Shown in pieces: positions 1-2,932 of a stretch of DNA of 64,000 bases (positions are counted from its first letter, which is position 1; every line of letters starts with the position of its first letter). Origin of the DNA: a virus; IMG/VR virus record IMGVR_UViG_3300046794_000505, positions 1 through 64,000 of that record; one strand, given 5' to 3'. A program made the translations under genes and the position numbers. The notes beneath the pieces are model-generated. The model had not been told where the DNA came from, did no database searches, and saw only the letters and a program-made list of their open reading frames with translations.

Positions 1-932
1 ACGTGACCAACGAAGTCGACGCCGCGATCCACGGGTTGCAGGATGGTCTTCGTCGGGTTCAACTTGGCGCCAAGGCTCGGCAGGAATGCTTCGACCTCAG
101 CCTTCCAAGCGTTGAGCTGTTGCGGAGACTCATGCAGGAACACGAAGTCGTCGACGTAGCGGATGTAATGCTTGGCGCCGAGCTGGTGCTTCGCGAACTG
201 GTCCAGCGCGTTCAGGTACACGTTGGCGAAGAACTGCGACGACAGGTTACCGATCGGCAGGCCAAGGTGCGCCGGCTGCGCGGTGAGGCGCTTGTGCTGC
301 GGTACCCGGTTGAACAAATGGGCCGGGCTGCGCACCTCGTAATTCTCGCGAGGGTCGTGCATCAGGATCTGTTCGGCGAGTGCCAACCACCATGGCTCGG
401 TGATCTTCGTGGCCAACTGTCGGCGCAGCACCTCTTTGTCGATCGCGACGAAGAAGTTGGCCAAGTCCAGCTTCAAATAGAAGACCGGCTTCGACCAGTT
501 CTGACTGGCGCTGCGAATCTTCGCCTCAAGGCGCTTTGCGGCGTACAGCGTGCCGCGACCGGGAATGCAGGCGCAACTGTCCGCTATGAAGCTGGCGTAG
601 AAGCGCGGGGCCACACGGTTGTACAGCAGGTGGTGGACGACGCGGTCCCGGAAGGCTGCGGCCCAAACCTCGCGGGCTTTCGGCCGAGTGACCACGAAGC
701 ATATCGATCGGCCTGGCCGGTAGGTGCCGGCGAGCAGGTCGTCGTGTAGACCGATCAGGTTCTTTTCCAGGTCCATTTCGAAAGCCAGCGCGCTGGCGCT
801 GTTGCGCTTCGAGCGCCGGCAGTCGTAGTAGGCCTGGACCAGATCGCTGAACGGGTAGGGACCAACATTCGAATCTGCGGACGGGGCGGACGCGGAGCTC
901 GTTGTACTTGTCGTCGCTGACCTGATAGCCAT
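1..932 (-). CDS. DGR reverse transcriptase (partial, runs off left edge)
   Basis: Reverse transcriptase of a diversity-generating retroelement. It copies the template-repeat RNA into cDNA with errors opposite adenines. Visible in the minus-strand translation, in order: FSDLVQAYYDCRRSKRN, the segment LDLANFFVAID with a catalytic Asp, GLPIGNLSSQFFANVYLN (the GxxxSQ signature of DGR and group II-like enzymes), HYIRYVDDF with the catalytic YVDD box, then GAKLNPTKT and a GVDFVGHV end. The C-terminus lies beyond base 1. The only ATG after the upstream in-frame stop is at 932, inside the template repeat; it gives a Ser/Thr/Ala-rich leader of about 30 residues before the conserved domain, with no clear Shine-Dalgarno. 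A later ATG at 777 would cut into conserved sequence. The order target-avd-TR-RT matches the Bordetella phage BPP-1 cassette. Confidence 0.95.
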   Translation of the reverse strand, partial: MAIRSATTSTTSSASAPSADSNVGPYPFSDLVQAYYDCRRSKRNSASALAFEMDLEKNLIGLHDDLLAGTYRPGRSICFVVTRPKAREVWAAAFRDRVVHHLLYNRVAPRFYASFIADSCACIPGRGTLYAAKRLEAKIRSASQNWSKPVFYLKLDLANFFVAIDKEVLRRQLATKITEPWWLALAEQILMHDPRENYEVRSPAHLFNRVPQHKRLTAQPAHLGLPIGNLSSQFFANVYLNALDQFAKHQLGAKHYIRYVDDFVFLHESPQQLNAWKAEVEAFLPSLGAKLNPTKTILQPVDRGVDFVGH

Positions 933-975
933 CAGCGAAGTTCATGTTGAATGCGTTGTTGGCGGAGCGCTGCGA
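875..975 (-). repeat. DGR template repeat (TR)
   Basis: A 101-bp segment that matches the 3' ends of the two upstream target genes. Read on the minus strand it would spell RSANNAFNMNFADGYQV..., with several AAC codons, the hallmark of DGR templates because AAC can mutate to most residues. Bases 875-900 are identical to both variable repeats and are GC-rich, as expected of the initiation-of-mutagenic-homing segment. Homology stops at 975, where an upstream TAG closes the frame, so the TR is not itself a gene in that frame. Confidence 0.93.
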
Positions 976-1146
976 CCTATCGTGCTATCTACGTCGCCAA
1001 GCCGAAGGCAGAGCCGATCAGCAAGGAAACTGCGCGAGACCAGCACGGACGCTTTAGACCGTCGGTATCTCTGATGCGCATGGCGGTGACCCAGAGGTCA
1101 GCGGCACGACCAGATTCAATTCGCACAGACCTGAAAGCCGTGACTC
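976..1146 (-). other. Spacer between avd and TR
   Basis: 171 bp between the accessory gene and the template repeat, not covered by a convincing gene. One frame is open for about 50 residues (contains DLWVTAMRIRDTDG) before a TAG at the TR edge, but no start with a ribosome site was seen. It is probably the transcribed leader of the TR RNA, possibly with a decayed coding remnant. Confidence 0.4.
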
Positions 1147-1503
1147 TCAGGTGGCGGGCGCGGTTGGGGTGGAGCGTTTCCAGGCATTGGCCTGCTTGCC
1201 GATTGAGGTGGTGACCTCGATCGCGGTGGCGTGCTGCCCGACACTGATGAACCGACTTTCCTTGAAAAGCCGCATCAGGAACTCGATCACCTGGACCTTC
1301 TCAACCAGCAAGGTCAGATGTGGGTGCTTGTCCCGGGTCGAGTTAGCCCGGGCAATCAACATCAGCACGTCGATGCACTCGTCGATGACGCGCTTCCCGA
1401 GAGACTGCTTGAGATCTCGAGGAATGTTGCGGGTGAGGTTCGTGGACATCTGAAGCAGGCCCAGCGAAGCCTTATAGATCGATAGTTCTGTGTGCATTCC
1501 CAT
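1147..1503 (-). CDS. avd: DGR accessory variability determinant (Avd-like)
   Basis: A 118-residue, mostly helical, basic protein placed between the target genes and TR/RT, the position and size of Avd. In BPP-1, Avd is a small four-helix-bundle protein that forms a pentamer, binds the reverse transcriptase and is needed for cDNA synthesis. Helical stretches include TELSIYKASLGLLQMSTNL, KQSLGKRVIDECIDVLMLI and HPHLTLLVEKVQVIEFLM; the LLVEKVQVIEFLMRL segment is typical of the family. The start is supported by GGAGA upstream of ATG at 1503. The C-terminus is Thr/Pro/Ala-rich. Assignment rests on fold-like pattern and context. Confidence 0.85.
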   Translation of the reverse strand: MGMHTELSIYKASLGLLQMSTNLTRNIPRDLKQSLGKRVIDECIDVLMLIARANSTRDKHPHLTLLVEKVQVIEFLMRLFKESRFISVGQHATAIEVTTSIGKQANAWKRSTPTAPAT

Positions 1504-1528
1504 TGCAGTGAATCTCCATGAATAGCAA

Positions 1529-2181: not shown

Positions 2182-2257
2182 GGTCTTTCCTCTTTTCGAA
2201 GGCAACAAAAAGGCGCTGCTGTGCCCGGTGCCGGATCAAGAATGGATGAATGAAGGA
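2182..2257. other. Gap between target genes, with CCGG-CA-CCGG element
   Basis: Short gap after VR1. It contains the inverted repeat CCGG/CCGG near 2224-2234 and the ribosome site of target A. The CCGG arms resemble those of the hairpin after VR2, so it may be the equivalent homing hairpin for VR1. Confidence 0.35.
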
Positions 2258-2857
2258 TTAAATAAACAATCTGCGGACGGGGCGGACGCGGAGCTCGTAG
2301 TACTTGCCGTCGCTGACCTGATAGCCATCAGCGAAGTGCATGTAGAATGCGCCGTTGGCGGAGCGCTGCGCACTCGTCCAGTACGCCCCTGTGGTGATCA
2401 GGCCGTTGACCCACACCTGGTGCATATCGGCAGGTGAACCCAAGAAGAAGTCATGGTGACCGTCGGAGGTGTACTTGGCGGCAGCATTGGCGGCAGGATG
2501 ATCACCTTCCGTGAGAAGGATCTCGGTGTTCCTCATGCCGTCCCATTTACTGGTGGCGCCTGACTCGGTTCCGCGACCGCCCCACGCGTGCTCACCGACG
2601 TCTTCAGTGGCGAGGATGAGGTAGTGCGCAGGGATATTGCCGCGAGCCGGAACCGGACCACCGTTGATGCCGCCTTGGCCCGGCCAGTACTCGCCGAGCG
2701 CCGGGATGGAGTAGGGCGCAATCGGTTGCACGTTGGCCGCAGGTGGCAACACCTGAGCAAACACGCTGGCCATGGCCAGTTGCGCGAGGGCAGCTGCTGG
2801 CATCTTGATGGTGGACTGCCCATGCTTAAGGGTGATCATTTCAGATTTCAATTTCAT
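2258..2857 (-). CDS. DGR variable target protein B (C-type-lectin-like)
   Basis: A 199-residue protein whose C-terminus is a DGR variable repeat. The start at 2857 is supported by AGGGAG seven bases before ATG. The N-terminal 30 residues carry an Ala/Met-rich helix (PAAALAQLAMASVFAQ). From about residue 60 the pattern is lectin-like: ILATEDVGEHAWGG, SKWDGMRNT, DHPAANAA, then YWTSAQRSANGAFYMHF and ELRVRPVR. It is the first gene of the DGR operon behind a plausible promoter, and lies near the tail spike gene, so a role as a receptor-contacting tail protein is inferred. It differs from target A outside the repeat, so the two are diverged paralogues or scaffolds with a shared C-terminal module. 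Confidence 0.88.
   Translation of the reverse strand: MKLKSEMITLKHGQSTIKMPAAALAQLAMASVFAQVLPPAANVQPIAPYSIPALGEYWPGQGGINGGPVPARGNIPAHYLILATEDVGEHAWGGRGTESGATSKWDGMRNTEILLTEGDHPAANAAAKYTSDGHHDFFLGSPADMHQVWVNGLITTGAYWTSAQRSANGAFYMHFADGYQVSDGKYYELRVRPVRRLFI
2271..2370 (-). repeat. DGR variable repeat 1 (VR1) in target B
   Basis: Matches the TR at an offset of 1396 bases. I count six substitutions, at 2299, 2307, 2338, 2344, 2352 and 2353, and every one is at an adenine of the TR coding strand. They change TR codons AAC or GAC to GGC, TAC, CAC, GGC and TAC. This is the classic adenine-specific mutagenesis pattern of an active DGR. Confidence 0.93.
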
Positions 2858-2903
2858 GCCATAACTCCCTGAGTAATTAATCGCGTTTTGTGTGTGCTGA
2901 TGC

Positions 2904-2932
2904 ATTATTCAGTAGTTACGACATTAAAGCAA
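2904..2932 (-). promoter_or_regulatory. Putative promoter of the DGR operon
   Basis: On the minus strand TTGCTT and AATAAT are separated by 17 bp, about 45 bp upstream of the target B start. This is a reasonable sigma70-type promoter. No other gene starts here. Confidence 0.45.

Follow-up and report, generated by a model that had tools for sequence, protein, structure and literature searches.

The locus described here raises the question of which of its three related repeats has changed. It lies at the start of a 64-kb window, by which we mean the whole stretch of 64,000 nucleotides that was analyzed, taken from an IMG/VR record of 85,776 bases (85.8 kb). It contains one template repeat (TR) and two target genes, T1 and T2, with the repeats VR1 and VR2. 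Over the 100-nt core, VR2 differs from its own TR at 6 positions, all of them TR adenines, while VR1 differs from the same TR at 11 adenine and 6 non-adenine positions. The TR of a DGR is usually described as an untouched master copy, one that “remains unchanged throughout the process” (PMC3240598). The reading that we favor, and consider probable, is that this is a two-target, Avd-type DGR with one template, and that the 3′ part of its TR has been overwritten by a backflow of mutated, VR-type sequence.

All of the DGR parts named in the original prediction, including a VR at the 3′ end of each target gene, were found where it had placed them, on the minus strand (Table 1). The order of transcription is T2, T1, avd, RT-15 RNA, TR and RT. 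Because the two ends of the source record share 127 bases, the contig was handled as circular. The RT gene leaves the window at its edge and is uninterrupted across the contig junction. Translation from the ATG at 932 gives a full product of 387 aa, the remainder of which is encoded at 85649–85418 of the circular contig. The cassette had been called complete-looking, and every component is indeed present, but the RT is truncated in the window and whole only across the junction. No second TR able to have written VR1 occurs in the whole contig, and promoter and terminator scans gave results near chance level. Downstream of the RT is a gene that resembles PAPS reductase.

Table 1. Features of the DGR cassette in order of transcription (window coordinates).
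Feature	Position	Strand	Description
Target gene 2 (T2)	2258..2857	-	199 aa ORF, VR2 at C-terminus
VR2	2271..2370	-	94% to TR; 6 mismatches, every one at a TR adenine
Target gene 1 (T1)	1561..2181	-	206 aa ORF, Lcl_C-like, VR1 at C-terminus
VR1	1577..1676	-	Probable fossil of older template, by mismatch pattern against own and ancestral TR
GC-rich hairpin	1529..1546	-	30 nt past VR1; 7 pairs including one G-T; loop CTTG
avd (accessory variability determinant)	1147..1503	-	118 aa; Pfam bAvd, PHROG 3206
RT-15 structured RNA	973..1163	-	Rfam RF03018, 183 bits, E 1.4e-45
TR (template repeat)	875..974	-	24 adenines instead of 31; 7 adenines replaced in 3′ part
DGR reverse transcriptase, 5′ part	1..932	-	ORF/translation, RVT_1, PHROG 1423; continues over junction to 85418

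The original prediction had proposed profile searches of the RT and Avd, and both proteins match DGR-type families. The RT matches Pfam RVT_1 and PHROG 1423 reverse transcriptase (E 2e-106), and its homologue in phage Cruim01 matches PDB 8ub7 (E 4e-38). With the motifs IGNLSSQ (for (I/V/L)GxxxSQ) and YVDD (for YxDD) also in place, it is predicted to be a full-length enzyme of the DGR clade. The avd product matches Pfam bAvd at 46.6 bits (cutoff 40) and PHROG 3206, “Avd protein of DGR” (E 3e-31), and is accordingly annotated as an Avd of the kind found in BPP-1-type DGRs; its match to the NCBIfam Avd equivalog DivGenRetAVD falls below the cutoff of that model. The 190-nt RT-15 RNA between avd and TR gives a covariance match to its Rfam family of 183.1 bits against a gathering score of 82.

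The cassette had been likened to that of Bordetella phage BPP-1. The likeness stands for the target-avd-TR-RT order, and extends to the presence of Avd, adenine mutagenesis, a hairpin past the VR, and C-type-lectin targets (PMC3240598, PMC12875486). However, the BPP-1 element has a single target and separates TR from brt by a spacer RNA, whereas the window has two targets, an RT start inside TR, and a known structured RNA upstream of TR. The ATG at 932 is the sole in-frame RT start in the window, and an in-frame RT ATG is found at TR position 42 in 141 of 162 loci among the matches listed; TR therefore serves as template and as first RT codons simultaneously. With the RT starting inside TR, there is no room for a BPP-1-type spacer between the two, RT-15 lying on the 5′ side of TR instead. 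Among the matches listed, 116 of 125 relatives have a hairpin with a stem of at least 6 past VR1, and none of 139 has one past TR. The window has the hairpin past VR1, which resembles the DGR target-recognition hairpin, a weak or absent one past VR2, and none past TR. A predicted hairpin downstream of a VR and absent at TR is the BPP-1-type arrangement.

Structure prediction of both targets, which had likewise been proposed, points to C-type-lectin/Lcl-type proteins, clearly for T2 and with more weight on profile matches for T1. T2 matches PHROG 4245, and its AlphaFold model (pLDDT 88) has the Lcl C-terminal domain 8q4e as top PDB match (E 2e-5). T1 has a Pfam Lcl_C match (E 2.5e-5) that lies under the curated cutoff and a profile match to 8q4e (E 1.2e-7), the structural match of its model being weaker (E 0.02). 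Both models are similar to C-type lectins and to the C-terminal domain of Legionella Lcl, so that each VR would lie at the 3′ end of a gene for a C-type-lectin-fold protein. Profile matches and models together support a DGR of the Avd type, with a full-length RT and targets that both have a lectin fold. The mutated proteins would be ligand-binding parts, and most likely receptor-binding ones. One TR and two C-type-lectin-domain targets are also found in gut phage DGRs with tentaclins, but those targets are of different topologies, whereas both targets of the window are short and Lcl_C-like with C-terminal VRs (PMC10743442).

Relatives were collected with the Cruim01 RT, from the best 80 of 463 viral-contig stretches and the best 80 of 146 bacterial-genome stretches, and by a DNA pattern scan that added 80 records. 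They are mostly Pseudomonas phages and prophages. TR and VRs were readable in 219 loci, 161 of which have distinct TR-VR sets; among the matches listed, 123 of these 161 have two VRs, 17 have three, 13 have one and 8 have none. With 9 loci that are cut off near TR left out, about 140 of 152 non-redundant loci (~92%, among the matches listed) have at least two VRs, and two tandem targets are therefore the rule in this mainly Pseudomonas lineage. The view that two neighboring targets are uncommon in phage DGRs thus fails for this lineage. In surveys, the share of DGRs with multiple VRs ranges from roughly one in seven up to about 29% (PMC3521204; PMC6642488, 271/948), and a two-VR DGR, that of Pseudomonas fluorescens WH6, was listed as early as 2012 in DiGReF, whose group 3, defined by a TR overlapping an end of the RT ORF, includes overlap with the 5′ end as seen here (PMC3521204). 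Phages Cruim01 (PP179333) and SC_8_H2H8_2017 (MT121966) have the same order as the window, T2-T1-avd-RT-15-TR-RT, with 79–83% DNA identity over the cassette, and two VRs with adenine-only changes; unlike the window, they have the ancestral, adenine-rich TR. Cruim01 also differs from the window in that its cassette belongs to an early operon and a third VR gene (PP179333.1 43578-44177; L245:3679-4278, minus strand) is found at a distance, near a repressor gene. L044, L065, L066, L176, L197 and L213 likewise have a third VR gene, 3 to 8 kb away from the cassette.

Comparison of 233 VRs with their local TRs, a count made among the matches listed that leaves out unusual loci, revealed changes at 3160 of 7046 adenine sites (45%) against 53 of 16254 other sites (0.33%), a difference that argues against chance repeats; 199 of the 233 VRs have no non-adenine difference at all. 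TR and VR differ almost only at TR adenines, as in a DGR. In L090 and L021, RT and TR are identical and VR2 is identical, while VR1 differs at 19 of 19 adenine-matched sites. VR2 of L233 differs from that of L090 (RT 99.3%) at 13 of 13 adenines, and the VR differences between L239 and L006 (RT 97.3%) fall at adenines in 12 of 12 and 16 of 16 cases. It follows that one template feeds both targets, independently, and for the family the original prediction that a single template would diversify two proteins is borne out. The same pairs are strong, though indirect, evidence of active mutagenic homing in the relatives. The window holds a genuine two-target DGR, which is probably active as well. Family VR genes with adenine-site differences also occur as orphan targets in Medea1 and Aurca01 (L007 and L008), reminiscent of the leftovers in Treponema denticola (PMC4891356). 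Unlike the window, these two keep both VR genes with an RT cut to its C-terminal ~75 aa, and no TR was found; they appear to represent natural loss of the mutator. In L112, the VR at -1376 has the first 13 bases of VR2 replaced and the remainder normal, which suggests a movable 5′ VR boundary.

The TR of the clade is near-invariant, with 49 loci having exactly the same 100 bases among the matches listed. The window TR departs from this consensus at 7 of the 31 consensus adenines (0-based positions 39, 47, 53, 54, 57, 59 and 68), now C, G or T, and at none of the 69 other positions. All 7 belong to the 22 “hot” adenines, those often mutated in VRs, of which 15 are left in the 100-nt repeat. The change is confined to the 3′ part: the ten 5′ adenines between 14 and 33 are all unaltered, an outcome with P 1.6e-4 if the entire TR had been rewritten, which favors a 3′ tract. 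When TR changes were placed on a tree of the RTs from 139 loci, those on the window branch were 7 at adenines and none elsewhere, compared with 87 changes from adenine and 165 from other bases over the tree overall. At a background adenine share of ~0.29, seven of seven would be expected with a probability of about 2e-4, a value not corrected for how many branches were inspected. The TR of L052 was rewritten more heavily (12 adenine changes and no others on its branch), and those of several other lineages lightly.

Pattern scans of other viral contigs, which left out near records of the window and missed L052, found no non-adenine at TR positions 53 or 57, and found one at position 68 only in the L038 and L045 families and at position 17 only in L190. 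A clade of phages sharing the TR bases of the window was not borne out by these scans. Other kinds of TR change were also observed. In L133, a 4-base block change (positions 49-52) is common to TR and VR1 and missing from VR2, another TR-VR exchange by non-adenine markers, and L032, L225 and L236 share a six-base TR block change at positions 74-79 (GAGCTC to ACCGCG) that is unlike point drift.

Measured against the ancestral clade TR, VR1 has 15 adenine and no non-adenine mismatches (0/69). Because its 6 non-adenine mismatches exist only against its own TR, VR1 is read as a fossil that the earlier template wrote. In VR2, all 7 new TR bases are present together with 6 more changes, all at remaining adenines; VR2 was therefore written by the new template or is its ancestor. 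Non-adenine VR changes are taken in DiGReF as signs of inactivation (PMC3521204), and the six in VR1 could in principle reflect ordinary decay in an inactive element with an intact TR. This is very improbable: the altered bases are in TR, not in VR1, whose reading frame and hairpin are intact, and comparison with the 49 identical ancestral TRs contradicts ordinary decay. The window and L052 sequences are assembled contigs, and TR rewriting was judged from assemblies. The source is an IMG/VR virus record and metagenomes contain mixed VR variants, so reads from a diverse VR2 population might have been misplaced into TR. We regard such an artefact as improbable, given that the 127 bp end overlap suggests a k of 127, which exceeds the 100-nt repeat and would tie TR to its unique flanks. 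Moreover, the present TR differs from VR2, and smaller adenine-only TR changes also appear in the L038/L193 record, whose identifier resembles that of an isolate genome.

A closer competitor is self-homing, in which mutagenized TR cDNA entered TR itself instead of a VR, and the new TR subsequently served to rewrite VR2. The cDNA is homologous to TR by definition, the adenine-only, 3′-anchored changes are those expected of homing tracts, and self-homing followed by VR2 homing would reach the same end state as backflow. However, in L045, L015 and L038 the TR joins the ancestral 5′ part to a 3′ suffix that matches one VR of the same locus exactly. In L052, where ~7 of 19 adenines should differ between each VR and TR, only 1 and 2 do (P 3e-4 and 3e-3), too close for mutagenic homing, so that the exchange was hardly mutagenic. 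The TR of BPP-1 is described as unchanged, and in that phage the hairpin past the VR is needed for efficient homing (PMC3240598); lacking this hairpin, TR should be a poor homing target. From the suffix cases, the L052 VRs and the missing TR hairpin, we infer VR-to-TR conversion in clear preference to self-homing, which seems unlikely.

In the favored reading, the TR RNA, with RT-15 just upstream, would be reverse-transcribed by an RT-Avd complex that makes errors at adenines. The resulting cDNA would replace VR1 or VR2 independently, as comparison shows for relatives and as is likely for the window phage. A VR-type sequence that had already been mutated, most probably VR2 in an earlier state, would then have overwritten the 3′ part of TR through recombination that used the identical 3′ end and bases shared nearby, fixing the seven former adenines as other bases. 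Present VR2 is not a clean donor, as adenines 63 and 71 differ, and must therefore have been re-homed after the event. The element would thus have worked afterwards, VR2 being a copy of the new template with 6 adenines changed since, while VR1 would not have been rewritten since and would keep the record of the old template. The order of events would be old template, writing of VR1, rewriting of the template, and rewriting of VR2 from the new template. More broadly, we lean towards the view that information flow in DGRs is not strictly one-way, and that in nature 3′-anchored conversion returns mutated VR sequence to the template.

The position of the cassette beside a tail spike gene, as originally predicted, is true of the window but peculiar to its phage, being common to no other locus among the matches listed. 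Of the 186 loci among those matches whose flank is long enough, 152 have upstream regions that belong to one connected family, and most relatives are in an early recombination-operon context; in Cruim01 this comprises an early operon with SSB and recombination genes, then a DNA methyltransferase and later an integrase. The DGR RT is absent from four partial relatives of the window phage, and the cassette was probably acquired horizontally. A clean empty site was considered and rejected: in one partial relative the gene that the window has downstream of its RT comes after a helicase instead, indicating a region that is rearranged, not simply empty. The window phage is contractile-tailed by its terminase, tail fibre and baseplate wedge genes (window 25515-27572, 58427-62732; L003:255-1463). 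Also encoded on its minus strand (6454-7857) are an HU-like protein and four tRNAs (Ser, Trp, Asn, Met), with an Rfam abiF RNA match between two of the tRNA genes (6612-6660; 33.5 bits, just under the gathering score of 37).

It is possible, though we hold it only tentatively, that the targets are early- or lysogeny-expressed proteins (e.g. surface or exclusion factors) rather than virion receptor-binding proteins, the adjacency to the tail spike having arisen by chance. The one other context common to most flanked relatives would fit such a role, as would the leftward orientation of the early operon in Cruim01 and the location of its third VR gene on the repressor side. However, the targets are without an evident signal peptide (by eye), and the window cassette directly follows the tail-spike-like gene. 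Phage DGR targets known so far are mostly tail proteins, which also counts against an early or lysogenic role.

As a system, this DGR is of a common Pseudomonas type and ordinary; what is noteworthy is the adenine-only rewriting of its template, with a VR left as a fossil. In the limited set of literature searched we found no account of such rewriting, and the parts of the DiGReF paper covered by a term search held no description of TR rewriting (PMC3521204). A dated series of template and VR events can be read from a single genome, and non-adenine VR differences can reflect template change and not necessarily an inactive element. If the proposal is true, part of the “non-adenine” VR changes in surveys would be template turnover rather than decay, and there would be a bearing on engineered DGRs, where template stability matters. 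Backflow would erode template adenines and with them the future range of diversification, while other VRs would remain as records of the earlier template; the 7 lost hot adenines would correspond to a nominal ~4^7 (16,000-fold) drop in DNA-level diversity. Although erosion by this route is open to them, most relatives have a near-invariant TR, which suggests that the ability to vary is kept by selection.
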